Notes under the pieces: model-generated
Database searches by the model: none
Told to the model about the DNA's origin: nothing
What the model saw: the letters and a program-made list of their open reading frames with translations, nothing else
Source of the DNA: Candidatus Shapirobacteria bacterium
GTDB taxonomy: Bacteria; Patescibacteriota; Microgenomatia; UBA12405; BS750m-G30
Assembly (NCBI GenBank): GCA_016783425.1
Contig: JADHWP010000003.1
Coordinates: 1-41,320 of the forward strand
Direction: 5' to 3'
Length of the DNA stretch: 41,320 nucleotides
In this document: one piece after another, positions 6,239 through 38,771 of the stretch
Layout: each line of letters opens with the position of its first letter
How positions within the stretch are numbered: the stretch's first letter is position 1
Position numbers and translations under genes: made by a program

Positions 6239-7768
6239 GTGAAAAGAGGCGGGTGGTTAATAATCTTCTTTATTTTTCTAAGCTTAATTATTGTTTTTTT
6301 GCTATCATTAACCAGGGGTAACAAAACTAAAGAAATGGCAGTTAAAAACGTAAACGAACCAGTCAGGTCAGCAGCGGTGGCCGGCGGTTTTTACCCCGGC
6401 AACAAAGAAATTCTTAGCGATCAAATCCAGGAATATTTAGATCAGGCTGAAGTTTTAAAAACGCCCGGAGAGTTAAAAATTTTATTTGTTCCCCATGCCG
6501 GCCTAATCTACTCGGGCCCTGTTGCTGCGGCCGGCTTTAAGCAAATTCAGGGCAAAAACTATACTAAAATTATTCTTCTTGGCAGTAGCCATCATTATCA
6601 CTTTAATCACGCCGCTGTTTATCTAAATGGTCTCTGGCAAACCCCCTTGGGTGAAGTTAAGGTTGACAGCGTTTTAACTGGCAAAATTATAGATGATTCT
6701 CAAAATATTTTGGCTGATGAGCAAAAACATAATCCCGATCATGTCCTGGAAATAGAGTTAATTTTTTTACAAAAAGCTTTGGACAATTTCCAAATCGTCC
6801 CCATTTTAGTAAGCAACCCTTCCGATCAATTGATTGACTCACTAGCTAAAAAAATAGCCGATAATTTCGACAACCAGACTTTACTAGTAATTAGTACCGA
6901 CCTCTCCCACTACCCTCCTTATGAACAAGCTAAAGTAGCGGACCAACAAGTCATTAACAGTATTTTGTCCGGCGACCTTAAAACTTTTGAAGAAAAATTT
7001 AAAGAGGTTGAAAATAGCAATTACCCTAATCTTGAAACTCCGGCTTGCGGTAAACAGGCGATCCGCATTGCCCTGAAAGTTAGCGCACTTTTAGGCGTTG
7101 ATCATTATCAACAAATTGCTTACCAAAACTCCGGCGATCTCCCCCAGGGCGATAAAAGCCGAGTAGTAGGGTATGCCGCCATTGGCGGCTGGGATAAGAC
7201 AACTGAAGAAGCAACCGGCAAGCCCCTCAATCAAACTGCCCAAGTTGAGGCCCTGCAAATCGCCCGCCAAACTCTGGAGAGTTATTTAAAAAAAGAGGAG
7301 GTTCCTTTGCCTCAAACTGCAAGCCCCCAACTTCAAACTAAAGCTGGCGCTTTTGTCACCTTAAATAAAAACAAAAACTTGCGGGGTTGTATCGGCTCCT
7401 TTGAAGAAAATAAACCCCTTTATCAGGTAATCCCGCAAATGGCGATTGCCGCCGCCAGCAACGACCACCGATTTCCTCCGGTTACTTTAAAAGAACTAGG
7501 GGATATAAAAATCGAAATTTCCGTACTTACTCCAAAAAAGAAAATTGATGATTGGCAAAAAGTAAAACTAGGAGTTGACGGAGTGGTGATTGAAAAAGGA
7601 GGACAATCCGGCACTTTTTTACCCCAAGTAGCCATTGAGACTAACTGGGATTTAGAAGAATTTTTAAGCCAACTTTGCGCTCAAAAAGCAGGTTTACCCG
7701 GCAACTGCTACCAAGACCCCGAAACAAACATCTACACTTTCCAGGCTCAAGTTTTTGAGGAAAAGTAA
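6239..7768 (+). CDS. Fused MEMO1-family (AmmeMemoRadiSam system protein B) + AMMECR1 (protein A), membrane-anchored
   Basis: PHAGLIYSGPVAAAGF, GSSHHYHF, STDLSHYPPYEQA, TPACGKQAI (MEMO); LRGCIGSFEENKPLYQVIPQMAIAAASNDHRFPPVTLKEL (AMMECR1); GTG start 6239 after TATAAT at 6224-6229. Confidence 0.9.
   Translation: MKRGGWLIIFFIFLSLIIVFLLSLTRGNKTKEMAVKNVNEPVRSAAVAGGFYPGNKEILSDQIQEYLDQAEVLKTPGELKILFVPHAGLIYSGPVAAAGFKQIQGKNYTKIILLGSSHHYHFNHAAVYLNGLWQTPLGEVKVDSVLTGKIIDDSQNILADEQKHNPDHVLEIELIFLQKALDNFQIVPILVSNPSDQLIDSLAKKIADNFDNQTLLVISTDLSHYPPYEQAKVADQQVINSILSGDLKTFEEKFKEVENSNYPNLETPACGKQAIRIALKVSALLGVDHYQQIAYQNSGDLPQGDKSRVVGYAAIGGWDKTTEEATGKPLNQTAQVEALQIARQTLESYLKKEEVPLPQTASPQLQTKAGAFVTLNKNKNLRGCIGSFEENKPLYQVIPQMAIAAASNDHRFPPVTLKELGDIKIEISVLTPKKKIDDWQKVKLGVDGVVIEKGGQSGTFLPQVAIETNWDLEEFLSQLCAQKAGLPGNCYQDPETNIYTFQAQVFEEK
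7739..7761 (+). repeat. Direct repeat copy A (23 bp) at 3' end of MEMO1/AMMECR1 gene
   Basis: TTCCAGGCTCAAGTTTTTGAGGA, identical to 8470-8492. Confidence 0.97.
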
Positions 7769-7772
7769 GCAT

Positions 7773-7812
7773 TACTTTACTACTTGACAAAAGTAAAGTA
7801 TTATTCTAAAAT
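7773..7812 (+). promoter_or_regulatory. Promoter and putative operator of vapB-like gene
   Basis: Inverted repeat TACTTTAC(7773-7780)/GTAAAGTA(7793-7800) brackets TTGACA (7784-7789); 17-bp spacer; TAAAAT (7807-7812); ATG at 7822. Confidence 0.75.
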
Positions 7813-7821
7813 CAAGGCATA

Positions 7822-8079
7822 ATGTTAACAACTACTCTTTCCAGTAAAAACCAAGTAACTTTACCTAAATTTTTTCTCCAAATGTTGGGATTAAGCGGAG
7901 GGGACCGACTGTTGATTGAAATAGAAGAAAACCAAATAAACCTTAAGCCAGCTAAAAAAAGCATAATTGACTTACTGGCCAAAAGTATTAAAGTGGCAAA
8001 AAGCAAAAAAGGGGTATCCTTTGAAAAGGCTTTAGCTCACACCAAAAAAACGGTTGCCCGCCAACTTGCAACTCCATGA
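7822..8079 (+). CDS. AbrB/MazE-type antitoxin
   Basis: TTTLSSKNQVTLPKFFLQMLGLSGGDRLLIEIEENQINLKP is a SpoVT/AbrB swapped-hairpin pattern. Confidence 0.85.
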   Translation: MLTTTLSSKNQVTLPKFFLQMLGLSGGDRLLIEIEENQINLKPAKKSIIDLLAKSIKVAKSKKGVSFEKALAHTKKTVARQLATP

Positions 8080-8489
8080 AAAATACTATCCTGATTGACA
8101 CTAACCTAATTCTCCGCCTCTTGATCGGTGATATTCCCATTCAACTAAAAAAATCCCAGCAGTTATTTAAAAAAATAGAAAATAAAAAAATAACTGGGCT
8201 AATTAGCATTTTAGTAATCAACGAGCTAATCTGGATTTTAGAAAAATTTTACCATCAGAAAAAATCAGAATATATTCCTTTAATTTTAAGGCTAATTTCT
8301 TTAAAAAATACTAAAATATTAGAAATCAAGAAGCAAGAATTAATTCAGATTTTAAGAAAAATGAAAGATGCAAATTTAGATTTTACTGATTTATATTTAC
8401 TTTTCTCCAGCCAAAAACTTAAAAACAAAATTGCCTCATTTGACAAAAAACTAAACTACCACTCGCGTCTTCCAGGCTCAAGTTTTTGA
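8076..8489 (+). CDS. PIN-domain toxin (VapC-like)
   Basis: ILIDTNLILRLLIGD, ELIWILEKF, DANLDFTDLYLL, IASFDKKL acidic PIN motifs; 4-bp ATGA overlap with antitoxin. Confidence 0.85.
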   Translation: MKNTILIDTNLILRLLIGDIPIQLKKSQQLFKKIENKKITGLISILVINELIWILEKFYHQKKSEYIPLILRLISLKNTKILEIKKQELIQILRKMKDANLDFTDLYLLFSSQKLKNKIASFDKKLNYHSRLPGSSF

Positions 8490-8492
8490 GGA
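8470..8492 (+). repeat. Direct repeat copy B (23 bp) downstream of VapBC module
   Basis: TTCCAGGCTCAAGTTTTTGAGGA; continuing in frame gives FQAQVFEEE* versus FQAQVFEEK* in copy A. Confidence 0.97.
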
Positions 8493-8897
8493 GGAATAAC
8501 GGGTCGGCCTGATAACAACAATGTCTTTCATCGAATAATCTTTAATATTTTTAGTAACTAATTTAAGATTGTAAAGCTTGGCGGTGGCGGCAATTAAGCA
8601 ATCCAATAAATAAACCCGTTTTTTCTTGCGGGCAAATTGCAAACGATAATCACCGGCAATTTCGGCTATTACTTCATCTATCGGCAAAACCCCAAAGCGG
8701 CTTATCAGCAAATTTAGTTTCTCTTTTTCCTCTTTAGAAGCCTTGCTTAAAATCTCTGCCACACTGACAGCGGAAATGGCAATTTCCCCTTTTTTAATCC
8801 AACCCTTGACTAGAGCGGCAACCGGTTCCCTTCCCCAAAAAGACTCCAAAATAACATTAGTGTCCAACAAATACTCAGGAGCGATGGCGATTTTCAT
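8478..8897 (-). CDS. PIN-domain toxin (VapC-like), second module
   Basis: YLLDTNVILESFWG, AVSVAEILSK, YLLDCLIAATAKLYNLKLVTKNIKDY. Confidence 0.9.
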   Translation of the reverse strand: MKIAIAPEYLLDTNVILESFWGREPVAALVKGWIKKGEIAISAVSVAEILSKASKEEKEKLNLLISRFGVLPIDEVIAEIAGDYRLQFARKKKRVYLLDCLIAATAKLYNLKLVTKNIKDYSMKDIVVIRPTRYSSSKT

Positions 8898-9162
8898 CTT
8901 TTCTTTGCTTTCGCTGCCAACTCTTAATATCAGCCACTTTTTTCCAGCCGCTTTTGCTTTTAGAAACGCTTCCTATTACGGCCTCAGCAATTAAATCCAA
9001 ATCACTTCTCTCAACCATATCTAAAACCATTCTCAAAACAGCGGCTTTGCGCAAATATTGGCTTAAACTCTCCTTTGTTAAAATTCTTTCAGCCTCAATA
9101 AGAGATCTCAATTGGGGGGAGAGGGAAATCTGAGTTCGTTGGGAATAAATAGATTGTTTCAT
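8875..9162 (-). CDS. VapB-like antitoxin, probable ribbon-helix-helix
   Basis: RTQISLSPQLRSLIEAERILTKESLSQYLRKAAVLRMV; overlaps the PIN gene start. Confidence 0.7.
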   Translation of the reverse strand: MKQSIYSQRTQISLSPQLRSLIEAERILTKESLSQYLRKAAVLRMVLDMVERSDLDLIAEAVIGSVSKSKSGWKKVADIKSWQRKQRKDENRHRS

Positions 9163-20099: not shown

Positions 20100-22009
20100 A
20101 ATTCATATTTCTCCTTTCAATATTTATTTTTCAAGTAGAAACTTTTTCTACTTCTACTTATTTTACCAGGTAAGAACATATTCTTACCTTAATTGACCAA
20201 AAATCAGATTGTTGAGATTAAAAAAGAAAAATCTTGCTCGGTTGATAGGTACAGCTTGGCTTAAACTATTACTAGTCTTACACCGGCTGCCCATGCCCAG
20301 TAGTCTCCTGGGAACCTGATAATGATTCCTAATCTCGGGGTGGGCTTCCCGCTTCAGATGCTTTCAGCGGTTATCCTTTGGAAACATAGCTACCCGACAA
20401 TGCTCTTGACAGAACAATCGGTACACCAGAGGTTTCCCCAACCAGGTCCTCTCGTACTGTGGTCAGCTCCCCTCAAGAATCAACGGTTACTGCGGATAGA
20501 GACCGAGCTGTCTTACGACGCTCTGAACCCAACTAACGCGGCGCTTTAATGGGCGAACAGACCAACCCTTGGCCACTTCTTCATGGCCAGGATGCGCCAA
20601 GTCGACATCGATGTGCCGATCCGGGCCGTCTATATGGACTATCGGGCCCGACCAGCCTGTTATCCCCGGGGTAGTTTTTATCCGTTAAGCCCCATGTTTA
20701 ACCATTCAAGCATGGGGGATCACTAAGACCTGCTTTCGCATCTCTCCGACGTAACGTCGGAGTGGTATCACCTTAAATCTCTTCAATCTATTGAATGAAA
20801 GAAATAAAAGGATTAACCAGCTCGACTTGTAAGTCTCGCAGTTAGGCTAGCTTCTGGCTTTGCCCTTACAGTTCGGTTTCCATCCGAACTAAGCTAACCT
20901 TTGTACGCTCGCGCTACCTTTTAGCAAGCGGCTGCCCCAGCCAAACTGACCACCAAACACTGTCCCTGTCCGAGTATTCATCGGACTTAGGTGAGACGCA
21001 AACATGATAAAGGGTGGTATTCCACTGGTCTCCGACGTAACGTCGGAGTCCCACCTATTCTCGACAATTACCAAATTCTAATCAATGTTAAGTTTCAGTA
21101 AAACTCCACGGGGTCTTTTTGTCCTGCAGTAACTAACCGGCATATTCACCGGTATTTCAATTTCGCCGGATGAAGGGTCGAGACAGTTGCTCGGTCGTGA
21201 AGCCTTTCATACTGGTCTGAACTTACCAGACAATGGACTTCGCTACCTTTGGATCCTTAGAGTTAGGACCGTCGTTCACCAGGGCTTCAGTTTGAGGCAG
21301 GTCGAAATTTCGACCCACCACGCCCCTTAACCTTCTGGCACCGGACAGGCTTCAGCCCCTATACTTCCCCTTACGGGTTTGCAGAGACCTGTGTTTTTGA
21401 TAAACAGTCGCCGAGCACTCGTTCGCTGCGGCCCCGCAGTTGCGGGGCAAGGCATCTCCCGAAGTTACGCCTAGCTTTTTTGCCGAGTTCCTTGACCCTC
21501 CTTCTTCCGATCGTCTTAGTATACTCAACCTGCCCACCCGTGTCGGTTTTCGGTACGAACGCTATTTTTTCTCCCAACGAAGCTTTTCTGGGTACCAGAA
21601 CCCGATAGGATTTCCCAAACAAGTTTGGAATTCCGGCAAGTCTTACTTTAAAACGGAATGGCGGATTTGCCTACCACTCCTAGCTCAACTAACCGATGCG
21701 GCAATTTCACTGCCACACCCCACCTCTCCCGATACGTCCCTCCCTTGGTAGTAACGAAAAAACAACGGGGCTGGAATATTAACCAGCTGTCCATCCACTA
21801 CCCCCGCATGTTGCGGGACTCATGTTAGGCTCGCCTAACCCTCAGACGACGAACGTGGCTGAGGAAACCTTGGGCTTTCGACGATTTAGATTCTCACTAA
21901 ATTTACGCTACTCATGCCGGCATTCTCGCTTCCCAGCGCTCCACCCCGCCTCACAGCGGGACTTCACTGCCCTGGGAACGCTCCCCTACCAACTCGCTCG
22001 TAGAGCGGG

Positions 22010-22150
22010 AAATTCCAAATCACAAATTCCAAGATACAAACAATAAATTACAAATCCCCAAGTAATCCAAACTGGATGTTTAGAGATTGGAATTTGGTTA
22101 ATTGTAATTTGTCTGGAATACTTGGTACTTGGTTATTGAAATTTTTTGTT
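22010..22150 (-). repeat. AT-rich quasi-palindromic insertion in 23S, helix 45-equivalent position (IVS-like)
   Basis: CAAATTCCAA-type left half and TTGGAATTTG-type right half; flanked by stem TCGTAGA/TCTACGA; adjacent to GTTGGTAGGGGAGCG of the helix 45 region. Confidence 0.8.
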
Positions 22151-22816
22151 CTACGAACGAATTCTCCGTTTTCGGTGGTCTGCTTTAGCCTCGATAAATT
22201 TTCGGCGCAACCTATCCTCCGCCAGTTGGCGGATCGACCAGTGAGCTGTTACGCTTTCTTTAAAGGATGGCTGCCTCTAAGCCAACCTCCTGGCTGTCTA
22301 GGATCGATCACTTCCTTCCCCACTTAGCAAGACACTTAGAGACCTTAAACGGGAGTCTGGGTTGTTTCCCTTTCGCCCAACCAGCTTAGCCCGGCTGGAC
22401 TGACTACCTGATAACACTACTCGGTATTCGGAGTTTGGTTGAACACCGGAGATCGCTCCCCAAATGCTCATTCAGTCGCTCTACCCCCAAGTAGATAAAT
22501 TCAGGCGCTATACCAATATATATTTCGGGGAGAACCAGCTATTTCCAAGTTCGATAAGCATATTACCTCTAACCACAGGTCATCCGAAGGGTTTGCAGCC
22601 CCTACCGGTTCGGGCCTCCTTCCGACTTTCGTCGGAATTCACCCTGCCCATGGTTAGCTCACTTGGTTTCGGGTTTTCCGCCAGCCGCTTATATGTCGCC
22701 TTATTCAGACTCGGTTTCCCTACGCCTCCGGTTTGTAAAAACCTTAGACTTGCGGATGACGAAAACTCGCCGGCTCATTCTTCAATAGGCACGACATTAC
22801 TCGCCTGCAGGGCGAG

Positions 22817-22948
22817 AAAATCACAATATTCAAATAACAAGATCCAAACAAAATTCAAATACCAAAATTCAAACTATGAAATCTTAACATTTGAAATTTG
22901 GAAAATTGGTTATTGTTTGAGATTTGACTATTGGAACTTGAGATTTCC
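22817..22948 (-). repeat. AT-rich quasi-palindromic insertion in 23S, helix 25-equivalent position (IVS-like)
   Basis: Lies after GAACCCCGGAAGGGGAGTGAAATAGAATCTGAAAC; flanked by GCCTGCAGG/CCTACAGGC stem. Confidence 0.8.
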
Positions 22949-23015
22949 TGGTCCTACAGGCAAGCTCTGTCTGTTTGTTAGCAAATAGTTTCAGATTCTA
23001 TTTCACTCCCCTTCC

Positions 23016-23046
<31 letters not shown>

Positions 23047-23270
23047 ATACGCTATCGGTCAATAAGAGTATTTAGCCTTTCCGGATGGCCCCGGAAGATT
23101 CCCACGAAGTTTTGCGTGTTCCGTGGTACTCAGGTACTCTGGCCAAACTTAGTCAAATTTCATCTACAGGACTTTCACCTTCTTTGGTAGACCAATTCCA
23201 GGCCTTTTGATTATCTTTTCAGTTTGGACTATCAGAGCCCTACAACCCCCACCTCGCGCTCCGCGCGAGA

Positions 23271-23402
23271 AACTCCAAGCTCCAAATTCTAAATCCTAAA
23301 CAAGATCCAAATTACAAATTCAAAATTCCAAAATAATTTTTGGAAATTGAAAATTGATTATTGGCCATTGTTTGGAAATTGAAAATTGAAAATTGAAAAT
23401 TG
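23271..23402 (-). repeat. AT-rich quasi-palindromic insertion near the 23S 5' domain (IVS-like)
   Basis: Contains TTTTTGGAAATTGAAAATTGATTATTGG and GAAAATT tandem repeats; flanked by GCGCGAG/CTCGTGC. Confidence 0.8.
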
Positions 23403-23755
23403 CTCGTGCGAAGCACAAAGCAGGTTTGGGCTTCTCCCTTTTCGCTCACCGCTACTAAGGGAATAATTATTATTTTCTTTTCCTCTGGGTACTAAGATGT
23501 TTCAGTTCCCCAGCTTACCCCCCCGACGTTACGTCGGGGTCCTCCGATTCAACATCGAAGGGGGTTATCCCATTCGGACACCGCCGGATCACAGGTTACA
23601 GACACCTCCCCGACGCATATCGCCGTCTGTCGCGTCCTTCTTCGGCTCTTATCACCAAGGCATCCACTATTTGCTTCTTTGCAAGATTCTATCTTTTTTT
23701 TCAACAATCTGATTCTTTAGTCAATTACTTTACTTTTAAGTTGTCAAGGTGCGGG

Positions 23756-31560: not shown

Positions 31561-31687
31561 AGTTTAGAAATTTCGCCTAACCAGCCATTATCTAAAAATA
31601 TTTCATAAAACTATCTTGATTTTAGCAGAAGCCTTAATTTTCTTCAATATAAAAATGGTGGTGGTCGTGCTTCCGAAAAAGCTCTGT

Positions 31688-32032
31688 TTAAAATTTTTCT
31701 TTTTCTATGATTTCTTGAACTTCTTTCTTTAAATCCCTGATATCACGAGTTGAAGCATCCCAAATAAGCCCCATGTTGACCCCAAAATAACCGTGAATCA
31801 AAACATCTCTCATGCCAGCAATTTTTCTCCACGGAATTTTTGGATATTTATCCTTAAGTGAAATTGGAATATTCTTTGTGGCTTCACCGATAATTTCTAA
31901 TCTCCTGACAACAGCGTCTTGAATTTGGGTAGACCTTGAAAATTCGTCTTCAGAAACACCCTCAAGATACTTCTCAATTTCAGAAATGCTCTCTAAGATA
32001 TGGGAAAGAAAAATTTTAGGATCTTTTTTCAT
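31688..32032 (-). CDS. hepT: HepT-like (DUF86) toxin
   Basis: RX4HXY motif RDVLIHGY; overlaps the nucleotidyltransferase gene. Confidence 0.88.
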   Translation of the reverse strand: MKKDPKIFLSHILESISEIEKYLEGVSEDEFSRSTQIQDAVVRRLEIIGEATKNIPISLKDKYPKIPWRKIAGMRDVLIHGYFGVNMGLIWDASTRDIRDLKKEVQEIIEKEKF

Positions 32033-32309
32033 AAATTATTTCTTGCTCTTTTAAAATAATGTCTTTAAGCAGCGGATGAATACATCCATAGGTTAACAAG
32101 TCAACCCTTCTTTTTAGCATATCTTCAAGATCTAGCTTTAAGCCCACCAAATCCAACAAACTCTTTCTTTCACCATACTCTATTAATAAATCAATATCGC
32201 TGCTTTTTTTCGTATCGCCCCTTGCGCATGATCCAAAAATGGCCGCCTTAACAACTCCTTGGCTTTTTAAAGTAGGAATGATCTTGGCGCTAATATCCTG
32301 GATGGTCAT
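32016..32309 (-). CDS. mntA: MntA-like nucleotidyltransferase antitoxin
   Basis: FGSCARGDTKKSSDIDLLIEYG minimal nucleotidyltransferase motif GS..10..DxD. Confidence 0.88.
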   Translation of the reverse strand: MTIQDISAKIIPTLKSQGVVKAAIFGSCARGDTKKSSDIDLLIEYGERKSLLDLVGLKLDLEDMLKRRVDLLTYGCIHPLLKDIILKEQEIIYEKRS

Positions 32310-32382
32310 AGATAAATCTTAACATATAACAACCGCAAAACAAATTAAAAAAAGTCCTTGTAGCGAATTTTTAGCAAAAACC

Positions 32383-34584
32383 TTAATTTTCTTCAATAAT
32401 CGCACCGGGGGCAACAAAAGGATCGAGGTTGTTGGGAACGTAAATGTTGGTAGTGGGCCAGGGCTGGTCGGTATTTTCAATGTTCGCCGGGCAGTCAAAA
32501 CAAAAAATAGTTCCGAGCGGATCTCTGTTCATCATGTGCTCCTGCCACTCCAGGTTTTCTTTTTGTTCTCCTGGTTGCACTGGTTGATTAGTATCTTTCT
32601 GGATTAGTACTGGTTGACGCAAAGCCACTGATTTTACCGGCTCGGTTCCCTTAATAAAATATTCATAGCGGCCGGCGCACCCTCCTTCGGGGGGCAGCAT
32701 CCCGGTTTCATTGCAAACGGTTTTTCCCACCACTGTATCCGGCCGAGCCGGAAAACGCTGGGGTTTGTCTTTTAAAACAAAACTGATAATTTTGTTCCAG
32801 ATCGGGGAAGCGCCGGTTACCCCGGAAGCGACCGCGCTCATGAAAGTATTGTCATTGTTGCCCACCCAAACGGTCACCACTATTTCCGGGCTATACCCCA
32901 CCGTCCAGTTGTCCCGCTTGTCATTGGTAGTTCCGGTTTTTACCGAAACCTCGGGATGATCCTCAACCACCAGCAAAGAATTTGACCCAAAAGCGGCGCT
33001 GCGGGCCCCATTATCCAGCAAAATATCATTAATTAAATAAGGAACCTCGGGAGGCAAAACCCTTTTTCCCAAAGTAGATTTCTTTTGCGCCAAAACCTCT
33101 CCGTTGCGGTCCTTTACTTCCAAAATAGAAACCAGATCCTGGCGAATACCTAAATTGGCCAGCACCCCAAAAGCCGTCGCCATCTCCGTCATTTTTACCT
33201 CTCCACCCCCTAAAGTTAAAGACAGACCGTAATTTTCCGGATCAGCAAAACTCTCAATTCCCATCGCCGAAGCGGTGGCGATAAAACTTTCCAGTCCGTT
33301 AACAGCCAGCATTTTTACCGCCGGCACATTAAAAGAGTTGCCCAGCGCGTAGCGCAACTGCACCACTCCGTGAAAAAGCCCGTCGTAATTGCGCGGGCAA
33401 TACCCTTTCTGCCCGGGAACGGAAAAGCAAGTAGGCACGTCATTAAAAGTAGTCGCCGGCGTTACCCGGCCGGTCACCAACCCGGTCGCGTAATTAAGGG
33501 GCTTAATCGCCGAGCCCGGCTGACGCAAAGCGGTAGTGACGTTAAACTTGCCATCAATATCATCGGCAAAATAATCTTTACTGCCCACCATCGCCAAAAT
33601 TTCCCCGCTTTTGGGCTCGGTCACCAAAACCGCGCCGTTGGAAACATGGGCTCTTTGCAATTTGGCTACTTCGGAAGCAACCGTACTTTGGGCAAAATCC
33701 TGAATAGTTAAATCCAAACTGGTTTTTACCCGCAACCCCCCCTGATCGACCATGGCCTGACCATATTCTTCTACCAACTGTTCTTTAACGTAAAAAACAA
33801 AATGCGGGGCTTTAATTTTGGCGCCCGGAAAAGCGAAATTTAATTCTTCTTCCCGGGCTTGCCTGGCTTGCTCTTCATTAATAAAACCGCCTTCCCTCAT
33901 TTCGCTTAAAACCAAATATTGACGGCTTAAAGCTACATCCGGGTGAGCAAAAGGAGAAAAGCGGGTGGGTGAGGCGGGCAAACCGGCAAGCAAGGCGCTT
34001 TCGGCCAAAGTTAAATTGGCCACATTTTTATCAAAGTAAGTTTTGGCGGCCGCTTGAATCCCCCAAGCTGTTCCCCCGTACGGAGTTTGGTTAAAATACA
34101 TTTCCAAAATTTGCTTTTTGCTGTAAATTACCTCCGTGGCAATGGTTAAAATCGCTTCTTTAATTTTTCTCCTCCAAGTCCGCTCGGGCGTCAGCAAAGC
34201 ATTTTTTACCAACTGCTGGGTAATGGTGGAGCCGCCCTGAAGCTTCTTTTTAAAAACAATGTTGTAAACCGCCCGGGATATTCCTTTTAAATCAAAACCA
34301 AAATGCTTGTAAAAGCCCCGATCCTCAATCGCCAGCGTCGCTTGAATTAAATGTTCGGGTACTTCCTCTAGCTTTACCGGCACCCGGTTTTTTTCAGTAT
34401 AAATTTCATAAAGCAAACTGCCATTTCGGTCGTAAATTAAAGTAGAAGCCGGGTAGGGGAAAGTGCTTAGCCTGGTTGGGGAAGGTAAATAGGCAATTAC
34501 CAGACCAAAGCCCGCCAAAACCAACCCCAAAAAAGAAAAAATAATTATTCTTCTCAATTTTTTGGGAATCGCCCTGAATTTCAT
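32383..34584 (-). CDS. Penicillin-binding protein 1A (second paralog)
   Basis: AIEDRGFYKHFGFDLKGISRA, GGSTITQQLVKNALL, RQPGSAIKPLNYATG, KTGTTNDKRDNWTVGYSPE; start moved to second Met since TATAAT (34596-34591) overlaps the upstream GTG. Confidence 0.95.
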   Translation of the reverse strand: MKFRAIPKKLRRIIIFSFLGLVLAGFGLVIAYLPSPTRLSTFPYPASTLIYDRNGSLLYEIYTEKNRVPVKLEEVPEHLIQATLAIEDRGFYKHFGFDLKGISRAVYNIVFKKKLQGGSTITQQLVKNALLTPERTWRRKIKEAILTIATEVIYSKKQILEMYFNQTPYGGTAWGIQAAAKTYFDKNVANLTLAESALLAGLPASPTRFSPFAHPDVALSRQYLVLSEMREGGFINEEQARQAREEELNFAFPGAKIKAPHFVFYVKEQLVEEYGQAMVDQGGLRVKTSLDLTIQDFAQSTVASEVAKLQRAHVSNGAVLVTEPKSGEILAMVGSKDYFADDIDGKFNVTTALRQPGSAIKPLNYATGLVTGRVTPATTFNDVPTCFSVPGQKGYCPRNYDGLFHGVVQLRYALGNSFNVPAVKMLAVNGLESFIATASAMGIESFADPENYGLSLTLGGGEVKMTEMATAFGVLANLGIRQDLVSILEVKDRNGEVLAQKKSTLGKRVLPPEVPYLINDILLDNGARSAAFGSNSLLVVEDHPEVSVKTGTTNDKRDNWTVGYSPEIVVTVWVGNNDNTFMSAVASGVTGASPIWNKIISFVLKDKPQRFPARPDTVVGKTVCNETGMLPPEGGCAGRYEYFIKGTEPVKSVALRQPVLIQKDTNQPVQPGEQKENLEWQEHMMNRDPLGTIFCFDCPANIENTDQPWPTTNIYVPNNLDPFVAPGAIIEEN

Positions 34585-34668
34585 CTTTCTATTATACACC
34601 GCGTTCTAAATCCTAAACTCTAAACACTAAACTCTAATAAATGACTAAATCTTAATCACTAAACAAGA

Positions 34669-34823: not shown

Positions 34824-37800
34824 TCACTCTTGAGATGTTTGTGGACCACTTAAAGATGGCGTGACTGGCTCTGATTGCCCTATTACTGGTGTCGGTGTTG
34901 ACGGTTGCGGCGTTAGTGCTGGTGGTGCCGAAGGCAGTGCTGGTGGCGCTACCTGCATCGGCGGCTCTGCTGGCTGGGGCTGCGCCGCTTCCTGGGCTTC
35001 TTTTAATTTGCGCTCCTCTTCTTTCCTTTTTAAAATCTCTTTCGGATCCGAAGTAATTAGTTTGTGCTCCTGGGGAGAAGCAATTATTCTAATGGCTACG
35101 TGATTTTGGCCGGCAAAGAAAATCCCCTCCCCAATGTTAGCGGCCAGCAAAAACTGCCGCTCTCCCTGGGAAAGGTAAAAAAGGTCCCCCACCTGATCAA
35201 TCGCCGCCGGATGCTGTTTAAGTAAAATCTGAATGGAAGAGTTTTTTACAATCGCCCCGCCGTATTTAGAAGTCAAAAAATCATCCACATCTTGAGTAAC
35301 CGTGGTCAAGCCCAAATAATATTTTCGCGCTCTTTTGGCCACCCCAAAAAGAAAACGGGCCGAATCCGGGTAGCGCATCAAATACCAGGCCTCATCAATC
35401 ACCAAAACCCGGCGTTTCAGCTCTTTTCTCACCTTGTTCCAAATAAAATCCAAAATAATGTGCATCGCAATCGGCCGCAGCGCCTCTTCCAAATCCTGGG
35501 TCCCAAAAACCACTAATTTATTTTCAATATTAATATTGGTTTGAGTATTAAAAAGGCCGGCAAAAGCGCCTTTAATAAATTTTTCCAACCGGGCGGCTAA
35601 CGAAGCGGCGGTCTCCTCTTCCATCCCAATCAGCACCTTATAAAGGTCTTCAATCAAGGGCATTTCTTTACCAGTTTGAGTTTCCGGGTCCATAGTAATT
35701 CCCTGGTTTTTATAGGTGGCTACTAAGCCTCTGTCTAAAATCGCTTCTTCTTGAGGAGACATTTTGCCCATAATAATCCGAAACAAAGCATACAAGGAAA
35801 GGATTTTACGGGTCAGCTCATTTTCCCCTTCTTCGGGCTTGATTAGCTCTAAATCAAAGGGATTAATTTTGGCCGGAGAGTTAAAGCCAAAAGTGATGTA
35901 TTGGCCGCCCAAAGCTTGACACAAAGTTTCATACTCATTTTCCGGATCAATCACCATCACTTCAGTATCAAACATTAACGAGCGCAAAGTCTCTAATTTG
36001 ATCATATACGAGTTATGAACAAACATTCCTCCCCGGCCGGCTAAAAAGACCCCGTTATCAACAGTTAAATCATAAACCCAGGGCCGATTATTTTTTAATT
36101 TTTTAACCTTAGTAATCGGGTCCCAAAAAAGACTACTTTCAGCCAAAGTTCGCAACTGGCTTAGAATCATTTTTGCTTTTTGAATCTTTTGCTTTCTTTC
36201 TTCCCAGGTTTTTAAAACATATTTTTTGGCTAAAAATACTTTCTGGTAAGTAAGGTTTGCGTTAGGATTTCTGTTTAAAGCAGAGAAAAATCCTTTGCTA
36301 AAATCTTTCTGATAAACTCCCAAGACCTTAAACGACTCTTTAATATCGCTAACTACCTGGTTAGGAGTCAAGTAAGTTTGAACGGCAATTCTAGAAACAA
36401 TTAAAGCGTTTTTTAATTTTGGCTTAACCTTTTTCTTTTTAGTTACTGCCCAGGAAGAGCCTAAGGCTTGCCAGGCTTGAGCATTAAGCTCCTTATCATT
36501 ACTAACAAGACCAATCATTTCTTCAATAGCCGGCAAATTCTCCAGGCGAGGCTTAACTAAAGTTTGCCATTTTTCTAGTTCATCAATGCGCTTTTCGCAA
36601 TCTTTAATTACTCTCTTTAAAAAGGCGGGAGAAGGATTAAACGCTCTTCTTTTTAAAGCCGAAATGGCCGTGGGAATAGCCACGTTGGTAGTGGGGTAAA
36701 GAATTTTAGCCAACTTACTAAATAAACTTTGGAGCTCGGGAACAATATCAACATTAGTGTTTTCCAGCTTAGTTAAAAGATTAGCCAGGGCCTTCTTTTT
36801 TCTTTGGCTAAAAAAGCTAATATTATCGACAAAATTTTGTAAATGTTTTTTCCCGGAAACAGTTAATTGCCAATAAGTTCGCTTCTTGGGTTTTTTAGAA
36901 CCAACCGCCTGCTTTCTTACTTTTCTAATTCGCGAGACAATACCAAAATAATTAAGCAGATAGCTAAGCTGGCTAATTAATTCTTTTGATTTTGATGTGG
37001 CTGAAACTTGGTGAGCCTCTACTGTTCCATCGCCCTCAAAATAACCTTTGATAAGCTCTGCAATAATTTCTTTAGGTGAAGAAAAAATAACTTCAGGAAC
37101 TTTTTTATTGCCTGCTTTTTGACCAATTCCCAGGCTAATTACTATCTGGGCCAAAAGCCGGCTGGCAAAACGAATCTCTTTATCATGAGGCGAAAAAGAA
37201 TTAAAGCCCAGTTTTCTTCCAATAGCAGCCGCTTTTTTAAGGAGCTTTTTGTCACCCGAGCTAATCGCTATCATTGACGATTGAACGGTTCCCTCGGCCA
37301 CAATCAAACCCAAAAAGAAAGCCAATTCTTTGTCAATCTTCAGCTGGCAACTTAAGCATTTATTTTGCTTAACCCGGGGTCCTAAATAAATATCTTTTAA
37401 TTGATTTTTACTTAACTTAATTTGGGTTTGCTCGCAACACCAATTAAAAAAGCTAATTGGCACTCCTCGATCCTGAACATATTTATAAAAATAACAAAAC
37501 AAGGAATGCTTTTTACCTTTTAATTGCTCCCTAAATTGAGTCATTAAAGGAACAGCATTATAAACAAAAAGATTAGGACTTTTTTCCAAAAGCTTTAAAA
37601 GATTAACCTTTTGAAAAAGAGAAGCGCTTGTTCCAATTTGGCGCGCTAAAGGAACAAATTCCCCCGTCGTAACTGCTTCTCCCTTGCTTAAATTCAGTTC
37701 TCCATTTTTTAAAACCACTAAATTATGATCGCCGGTAATCGTCATTTGCCGGCCGGAGGCGGTAGTAATTTGATAAAGATCGTCAGGAGCTACTTTTCGC

Positions 37801-38771
37801 GCGGCAACCGTTACCTTTGACCACTCGGTTTTAAGTTTAGAGTTAAAAGTATAGACCTCCAAACCCGGCGGGAAAATTACTCCCTTTATTTCCTCATCTA
37901 TGCTGACTGTTTTATGTTTTTTCATCAGCTTATTAATTAAAGGGCCAATGGCGGTTAGTTTTATTTCCCCGTCTTGGCGAATCAACACCGGCTCAAATCC
38001 AGCCAGACTTTTCCCCGCCCCGGATTTGGCAAAAACCACGGTATTGTAATTCTCCATGGTAAACCGGTCAAAAACGACTAAAGAACCGTTGTGCTGATTA
38101 ATTCCGTACATAATCCCTTTATCATCAGAAAGCTCCGAAGAAACAAAGGGGAAAGTGGTTGATAGCGTAGCGGTGGGCATGTTTCGGGTGACATTTAGAT
38201 CGTCCTTGCACAAAGGAAGCACGGTTCTAAACCCTTCTTCCATTTCCAAAATGGCTGTTTTCGGAATAATCATCAAGGCCCCCAGCGAGGCCTGCAACTC
38301 TTTGCTGATCCGGTCCAGTTCAGCCACTGATTCCGCCGAAACGGTAATGTAAAGCCCAAATTGAAAAAACTTTTCCACCCCTTTGGCCAACTTTTCCTGC
38401 AAAGACAGCGCATCTTCCAACTTGGCCTGGGTCGTGGGATCAACTACTTTGCCTCGCTGGATATCAGTAGAAATTTCTGCTTCCATCCGGGCAATAGTTT
38501 TGCGCATTTCGTCCAAAACCCCCTTGCCTTCCACCGGGTAAATATACATCGCAATATCCAGCTCCCGATCAAAATTAACTAAAGGAGAGAGCCAGTTGGG
38601 CGAAACATACCGCGGGTAATTAACCACGTAAAAAGTGCGGTGAAAACGATTATTAATCCGCAAGTAGTTAAAGTCTACTTCTACGGCCGAGGGAGCGATT
38701 ATGTCCTTAATCGTGACCAGGCCCGGAGCCAGGGCTGAAGGCGGAAGTACAGCCTTATCCTTAAATTTCAT
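34824..38771 (-). CDS. VirB4/TraC-type T4SS ATPase precursor containing an intein
   Basis: N-extein VVFAKSGAGK / C-extein SYMIKLETLRSLMFDTEVMVIDPENEYETLC...VLVIDEAWYLMRYPDSARFLFGVAKRARKYYLGLTTVTQDVDDFL. Confidence 0.95.
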   Translation of the reverse strand: MKFKDKAVLPPSALAPGLVTIKDIIAPSAVEVDFNYLRINNRFHRTFYVVNYPRYVSPNWLSPLVNFDRELDIAMYIYPVEGKGVLDEMRKTIARMEAEISTDIQRGKVVDPTTQAKLEDALSLQEKLAKGVEKFFQFGLYITVSAESVAELDRISKELQASLGALMIIPKTAILEMEEGFRTVLPLCKDDLNVTRNMPTATLSTTFPFVSSELSDDKGIMYGINQHNGSLVVFDRFTMENYNTVVFAKSGAGKSLAGFEPVLIRQDGEIKLTAIGPLINKLMKKHKTVSIDEEIKGVIFPPGLEVYTFNSKLKTEWSKVTVAARKVAPDDLYQITTASGRQMTITGDHNLVVLKNGELNLSKGEAVTTGEFVPLARQIGTSASLFQKVNLLKLLEKSPNLFVYNAVPLMTQFREQLKGKKHSLFCYFYKYVQDRGVPISFFNWCCEQTQIKLSKNQLKDIYLGPRVKQNKCLSCQLKIDKELAFFLGLIVAEGTVQSSMIAISSGDKKLLKKAAAIGRKLGFNSFSPHDKEIRFASRLLAQIVISLGIGQKAGNKKVPEVIFSSPKEIIAELIKGYFEGDGTVEAHQVSATSKSKELISQLSYLLNYFGIVSRIRKVRKQAVGSKKPKKRTYWQLTVSGKKHLQNFVDNISFFSQRKKKALANLLTKLENTNVDIVPELQSLFSKLAKILYPTTNVAIPTAISALKRRAFNPSPAFLKRVIKDCEKRIDELEKWQTLVKPRLENLPAIEEMIGLVSNDKELNAQAWQALGSSWAVTKKKKVKPKLKNALIVSRIAVQTYLTPNQVVSDIKESFKVLGVYQKDFSKGFFSALNRNPNANLTYQKVFLAKKYVLKTWEERKQKIQKAKMILSQLRTLAESSLFWDPITKVKKLKNNRPWVYDLTVDNGVFLAGRGGMFVHNSYMIKLETLRSLMFDTEVMVIDPENEYETLCQALGGQYITFGFNSPAKINPFDLELIKPEEGENELTRKILSLYALFRIIMGKMSPQEEAILDRGLVATYKNQGITMDPETQTGKEMPLIEDLYKVLIGMEEETAASLAARLEKFIKGAFAGLFNTQTNINIENKLVVFGTQDLEEALRPIAMHIILDFIWNKVRKELKRRVLVIDEAWYLMRYPDSARFLFGVAKRARKYYLGLTTVTQDVDDFLTSKYGGAIVKNSSIQILLKQHPAAIDQVGDLFYLSQGERQFLLAANIGEGIFFAGQNHVAIRIIASPQEHKLITSDPKEILKRKEEERKLKEAQEAAQPQPAEPPMQVAPPALPSAPPALTPQPSTPTPVIGQSEPVTPSLSGPQTSQE
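36012..38009 (-). other. Intein (about 666 aa) with LAGLIDADG/DOD homing endonuclease, inserted in VirB4 Walker A
   Basis: Ser1 SLAGFEPVLIRQDG (block A), TITGDHNLVVL (block B), FFLGLIVAEGT and GYFEGDGTV (DOD), PWVYDLTVDNGVFLAGRGGMFVHN|S (blocks F/G); both junctions are in frame. Confidence 0.93.

Follow-up and report, generated by a model that had tools for sequence, protein, structure and literature searches.

The locus examined here raises the question of how a toxin-antitoxin (TA) operon devoid of a recombinase gene came to be enclosed by two copies of the 3' end of its neighboring gene. The window, i.e., the whole stretch of 41,320 nucleotides that was analyzed, belongs to a draft genome of 33 contigs from a Candidatus Shapirobacteria bacterium, which, like its named relatives, is probably metagenome-assembled. 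It contains TTCCAGGCTCAAGTTTTTGAGGA as an exact 23-bp direct repeat at 7739-7761 and 8470-8492 with a start-to-start period of 731 bp, and extending the pair to 30 bp yields identity at 27 of 30 positions. These coordinates and the degree of identity had been reported in a first-pass annotation and were reproduced. The 731-bp cassette named there, which was said to be bracketed exactly, requires adjustment: the figure is the repeat period, while the DNA between the copies measures 708 bp, and the operon is indeed bracketed, except that copy B encodes the last six residues and the stop (LPGSSF and stop) of the plus-strand PIN protein. Because the last codons and the stop of the toxin thus lie inside copy B, the core cassette is taken as 708 bp. 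The features of the locus are as follows.

6404-7768, plus strand: Memo and AMMECR1 fusion gene (PF01875, PF01871), the target, with its end (FQAQVFEEK and stop) from copy A; C-terminus single-copy in the relatives G001 and G004
7739-7761, plus strand: first unit of the direct repeat (copy A; 23 bp, 27/30 if prolonged to 7768), which serves as the present 3' end of the gene
7762-8469, plus strand: core cassette of 708 bp between the copies
7769-7821, plus strand: putative promoter/operator region (CTTGACA..., AGTAA/TTACT repeats), read from the sequence, directly past the target's stop
7822-8079, plus strand: AbrB/MazE-type antitoxin, 85 aa (PF04014, E=1.6e-8)
8076-8489, plus strand: PIN (VapC-like) toxin, 137 aa (PF01850, E=7.6e-11), last six codons and stop in copy B
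8470-8499, plus strand: copy B, displaced 3' end of the target (FQAQVFEEE and stop), presumed original host end
8478-8897, minus strand: second PIN toxin (VapC2; PF01850, E=3.2e-20), convergent, its C-terminus running antisense through copy B
8875-9162, minus strand: small open reading frame (ORF) upstream of VapC2, presumed antitoxin, called as an ORF only

Copy A constitutes the C-terminal coding end of the Memo and AMMECR1 protein, and copy B encodes the corresponding FQAQVFEEE and stop in the same frame. In antisense orientation, copy B also provides the last residues of the opposing PIN protein, as the first-pass annotation had pointed out. The core cassette has a GC content of 30.4% compared to 41.9% in the target gene, and the antitoxin gene overlaps the start of the toxin gene at 8076. 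By their families and gene order, the AbrB/PIN pair is of the VapBC type and would be expected to act as antitoxin and toxin, the acidic residues D8, E50, D105 and D123 of the PIN protein being invariant among 11 homologues. A Pfam scan of the ORF at 8875-9162 detected no antitoxin family above the cut-off, and neither the ORF list nor the Pfam matches of the window cassette include a recombinase gene. Both repeat copies are unique, since no further copy occurs in the whole genome with up to three mismatches. Given the composition of the window, the expected number of exact 23-mer pairs is about 3e-5, and 100 Markov shuffles of the window produced none. A chance origin of the repeat is hence excluded.

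In relatives lacking the cassette, the gene end is present only once: AMMECR1 possesses a single C-terminus in G001, a member of the same family, as well as in G004, which belongs to the same order, and no second AMMECR1 C-terminus was found within 3.5 kb in either genome. This comparison is accordingly one at family and order level. The cassette-free relatives thus carry one copy each, in contrast to the two that would have spoken against an insertion. G001 is syntenic with the window, and its AMMECR1 and korA genes are 0.3 kb apart compared to 2.4 kb in the window, with differing gene content in this interval. G001 lacks both TA pairs, and a genome in which AMMECR1 directly abuts the minus-strand vapC gene (VapC2) was not found. 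Since copy B is continuous with the second VapBC pair, it is plausible that this pair was resident before the AbrB/PIN cassette arrived. Elsewhere in the window (34824-38771), an intein equipped with a LAGLIDADG endonuclease domain splits a VirB4/TraG-like ATPase gene and is missing from the G001 orthologue. In addition, the 23S rRNA gene (20228-23688) extends over about 3.46 kb and thus exceeds the 2.9-kb model, which hints at insertions.

When 512 of the 624 kb of the genome were scanned for long repeats on both sides of short intervals, further units of this kind emerged. Within the window, a TA pair of the MNT/HepT type is bracketed by a 30-bp repeat (28/30 identical, period 749) at the point where a penicillin-binding protein gene ends, so that 31620-32398 reproduces the architecture of the AMMECR1 case:

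31620-31649, minus strand: displaced copy of the penicillin-binding protein gene end (28/30)
31688-32309, minus strand: MNT/HepT (nucleotidyltransferase/HEPN) TA pair between the 30-bp repeats (PF18765/PF01909, PF01934)
32369-32398, minus strand: 30-bp repeat copy across the stop codon of the penicillin-binding protein gene, which is intact (32383-34599)

On contig C27 (L216, 9427-9998), the 3' end of dnaN is duplicated around a 142-aa ORF without Pfam match; the repeat comprises 47 bp and both copies encode SWLHVIMPVRLEEE followed by a stop. On contig C3 (L135, 1320-3859), a LexA-DNA-binding/S24-peptidase domain fused to a DNA methyltransferase lies beside an ORF without assigned function, and at the 5' end of a lon-like gene this pair is bracketed by a 45-bp repeat (44 identical). 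Contig C6 (L201, 2224-4362) harbors a second MNT/HEPN-like pair together with a 317-aa gene between exact 67-bp repeats, which are promoter-like and of which a third, partial copy is located upstream.

The arrangement recurs within the class. Homologues of the PIN protein were searched in 374 genomes, and the left and right flanks were compared at the 130 loci where they were readable, a locus being regarded as bracketed at a local-alignment repeat score of 42 or more. Bracketing was observed at 16 of 130 PIN loci, while 0.34 were expected from flank permutation, and at 12 of 459 control gene intervals from the same stretches (Fisher p=4e-5). The window's own MNT/HepT pair and a DUF433/DUF5615 pair count among the scoring controls, which makes their rate conservative. 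Among the PIN loci retrieved once the hypothesis stood, 12 of 57 were bracketed. An earlier count with strict spacing, which is less sensitive than the local-alignment flank test, had given 4/77 PIN loci versus 11/818. At about 85% of the PIN loci a repeat is undetectable. At the peptide level (score of at least 28), the C-terminus of the upstream gene reappeared past the toxin in 7/94 and 6/66 cases, with 0.59 and 0.42 expected. All of these matches concern upstream co-directional genes (88 tests), and oppositely facing neighbor genes gave a C-terminal match in 0 of 72.

Taking DNA and peptide evidence together, about 16 loci have the 3' end of the upstream gene as near copy, and the targets are AMMECR1, fmt (three), rpiB (two), sortase (two), FtsH, RNase J, MgtE, a PD-(D/E)XK protein, a FemAB protein (L071), a predicted sugar-nucleotide epimerase and two unnamed genes. 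Fmt, sortase, RNase J, rpiB, PD-(D/E)XK, MgtE and FtsH were named by Pfam, while FemAB and the above-mentioned dnaN show the matching pattern. Those hosts that public records name are Microgenomates (Gottesmanbacteria, Microgenomatus and others). The expectation of the first-pass annotation that such cassettes would be found at other gene 3' ends with matching repeats was thus borne out at many loci. The ends of rpiB (L086, L074), fmt (L263, L107, L250) and sortase (L245, L280) are occupied in more than one genome; these genomes are related, and each set may go back to one old event, so that independence is not assured. Four loci were left out as unconvincing, i.e., L103 (neighboring tRNAs), L259 (gene copy), L100 and L230. 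At L066, L282 and L135, the duplicated part is the 5' end or promoter of a gene, and the 3' end is therefore not the sole target.

The cassettes share a common anatomy. The near copy usually ends about 45-62 bp ahead of the antitoxin start, where the promoter/operator begins, a stretch of 54-57 bp in the window cassette and several sister cassettes, and in most cases the far copy begins 21-51 nt past the conserved Phe-Asp codon of the toxin. Cassette length is 659-797 bp in 16 of 17 cases, with ends within tens of bp of the TA operon, and in 8/17 the stop of the toxin resides inside the displaced copy. These tight ends imply that the mobile unit consists of the TA operon and little else. In agreement with the absence of a recombinase noted in the first-pass annotation, none was present in any sister cassette examined. 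A core sequence common to the targets was not found either, as every target repeat differs across about a dozen gene families.

Repeats of other kinds were encountered as well. Those of L128, L133, L066 and L071, which originate from three different genomes, form imperfect hairpins with CGATCG in the loop. This hairpin was considered as a shared recombination core and set aside as a separate phenomenon, because it is missing from the window repeat; possibly, it represents a separate dispersed element that flanks cassettes. Eight copies of AACTAGCAACTATNCGA occur on contigs C8, C9, C10, C19 and C26 of the window genome (L192-L199), mostly as gene-bracketing pairs, and a tyrosine recombinase gene is situated beside one of them (C19). 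In another genome (G281, contig C1), an array of TA or accessory genes (L082; 9258, 10053, 11326) is spaced by copies of ATAATCCCGCCCC[AG]TGAAAAAA. An integron-cassette reading of the arrays in G281 and on contig C10 of the window genome was considered and not adopted.

Insight into the origin of the two copies comes from their divergence. Between the dnaN copies there are six synonymous differences and one nonsynonymous one, among them a TAA/TAG exchange at the shared stop; in-frame stops are likewise found in both copies of MgtE. At one fmt locus (L263), the copies agree over 37 bp and then run into two different ends. Since the C-terminal peptide scan favors synonymous divergence by design, the excess was examined again in a set restricted to DNA-detected cases, where 43 of 117 coding differences were synonymous compared to 21% expected (p=5e-5, frameshifted copies included); frameshifts are present in two displaced copies. 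Because the copies often differ by synonymous changes, one of them is probably foreign and seems to have been shaped in another lineage, where it served as a working gene end. Such two-allele divergence speaks for a cassette bringing its own gene end rather than for host DNA duplicated anew. In the window, the copies match throughout 23 bp and differ at three positions beyond, and hence fit a carried-in end and a plain duplication alike. The fmt gene of L263 (G295, contig C30) contains about 24 in-frame residues (237-260) that are missing from fmt of most relatives; this segment matches unrelated places in other genomes with up to 92% and resembles a small in-frame repeat element.

Insertion of a TA cassette at the 3' end of AMMECR1 with regeneration of that end, as initially suggested, is well supported and best fits the data, given the single copy in cassette-free relatives and the recurrence elsewhere. 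As to the route, we are moderately confident that a minimal mobile TA cassette carried in an AMMECR1 end and recombined by a crossover within that end. The chain of evidence comprises the repeat, its single copy in cassette-free relatives, recurrence, polarity, tight ends and coding-like divergence. The identity of the copies (incoming versus host), the crossover route and the form of the DNA are what we infer from these data. The 708-bp unit, which would consist of its own promoter/operator, the AbrB-type antitoxin, the PIN toxin and almost nothing more, would have arrived joined to an AMMECR1 3' end from an earlier residence. Either a circular intermediate could have integrated by a single crossover within the shared end, or linear DNA taken up by natural transformation could have recombined by a crossover on one side and been end-joined on the other. 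Copy A, as the incoming end, would then complete the host gene, the host's own end (copy B) would be displaced to the far side, and copy B would in turn give the toxin its last codons and stop. Insertion with long target duplication may account for the first joining of a cassette to a given gene end, and addiction would help to retain the cassette in place. Saccharibacteria have been shown to be naturally transformable, and the conservation of com genes extends across the CPR phyla (PMC10633639); moreover, homology-facilitated illegitimate recombination is a known process (PMC3240628). Against a crossover it weighs that 20-70 bp of homology is short for RecA. For the type II TA operons of Microgenomatia in general, the odds appear evenly balanced that they are recombinase-free mobile units joined to a target 3' end, which enter by a crossover of fixed polarity, swap the gene end and often borrow its stop.

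The most serious rival is a plain insertion with target duplication, which renders a carried-in gene end unnecessary and which we regard as possible, though rather unlikely. The exact 23-bp identity in the window would be its natural outcome, the methyltransferase pair of the same genome with its 45-bp repeat (44 identical) at the 5' end of the lon-like gene points in the same direction, and long, variable target duplications are known for restriction-modification (RM) systems (PMC3031569, PMC3874152). However, many sister copies have diverged with a synonymous excess while both in-frame stops were kept (dnaN, MgtE), and at the fmt locus L263 two ends follow 37 identical bp, all of which is unlike neutral decay after a duplication. 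The strong polarity is not predicted by such a process either. Improbable by comparison is site-specific integration by a tyrosine recombinase acting in trans, for which gene 3' ends would serve as att sites as in genomic islands. The att-like anatomy would suit this reading, and the genome encodes three proteins of the phage integrase family, all on contigs other than that of the window; however, one of these genes adjoins a different repeat family, no cassette examined contains a recombinase, and a trans-acting recombinase is unlikely because the targets, about a dozen gene families, share no core.

Copy B could also be conceived as the relic of a second AMMECR1 gene left by tandem duplication and subsequent deletion, which would likewise leave two 3' ends around a gene pair. 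This is very improbable, as it would require the deletion, around a TA operon each time, to halt within 30-100 bp of the stop in about a dozen genes unrelated to each other, and longer remnants were not seen in any relative. An artefact, be it a chance repeat or a metagenome misassembly at a short repeat, might be suspected in a draft of 33 contigs that is probably metagenome-assembled, yet it has next to no credibility: chance is excluded and the architecture recurs in several separate public assemblies (Gottesmanbacteria, Microgenomatus and others).

Chromosomal insertions of TA pairs are known, e.g., between folA and apaH in E. coli O157. TA modules are regarded as highly mobile in a 2020 review, which describes the integration mechanism as unelucidated (PMC7167474). 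HEPN-MNT modules present in one strain only were noted as insertions in another study (PMC2701414). These examples resemble the present cassettes in that TA pairs lie between conserved genes, and a duplicated gene end is unmentioned in the sections concerned (PMC7167474, PMC2701414). In the literature, mainly outside subscription journals, no account of TA cassettes with exchanged gene 3' ends was found. With its defined ends, polarity and target copies, such a footprint renders TA integration testable by genome comparison and transformation, and the recombinase-free cassette reading, if true, would explain in concrete terms in what way chromosomal TA modules travel. The footprint further suggests that the ends of housekeeping genes (fmt, dnaN, ftsH, RNase J) in ultrasmall bacteria may have been exchanged as a by-product of TA movement.

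Genomic islands and prophages also integrate at gene 3' ends, where the arriving DNA completes the host gene and pushes its former end aside. Unlike these, the cassette described here comprises only two genes on about 0.7 kb and lacks an integrase as well as a common att core. The minimal mobile elements of Neisseria are similar in being small whole-gene cassettes exchanged between conserved genes via homologous recombination; on the other hand, neither a duplicated nor a replaced end of the flanking gene forms part of their definition as given in PMC3082526. The closest known kind is the insertion with long target duplication of RM systems, followed by the minimal mobile elements. The RM insertions were reportedly described by Nobusato in 2000 and Furuta in 2010. 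Long direct repeats of locus-specific sequence flank the present cassette, too. According to later papers, RM systems generate long, variable target duplications upon insertion (PMC3031569, PMC3874152), and as far as these accounts go, the RM insertions and the present ones both involve an addictive gene pair, no transposase or terminal inverted repeats, and direct repeats that are long, variable and locus-specific. In contrast to the RM insertions portrayed there, the payload at the loci analyzed here is a TA operon, the two copies frequently represent diverged alleles and not newly made duplicates, and the cassettes are strongly polar at gene 3' ends, where the toxin can borrow the stop codon of its target.
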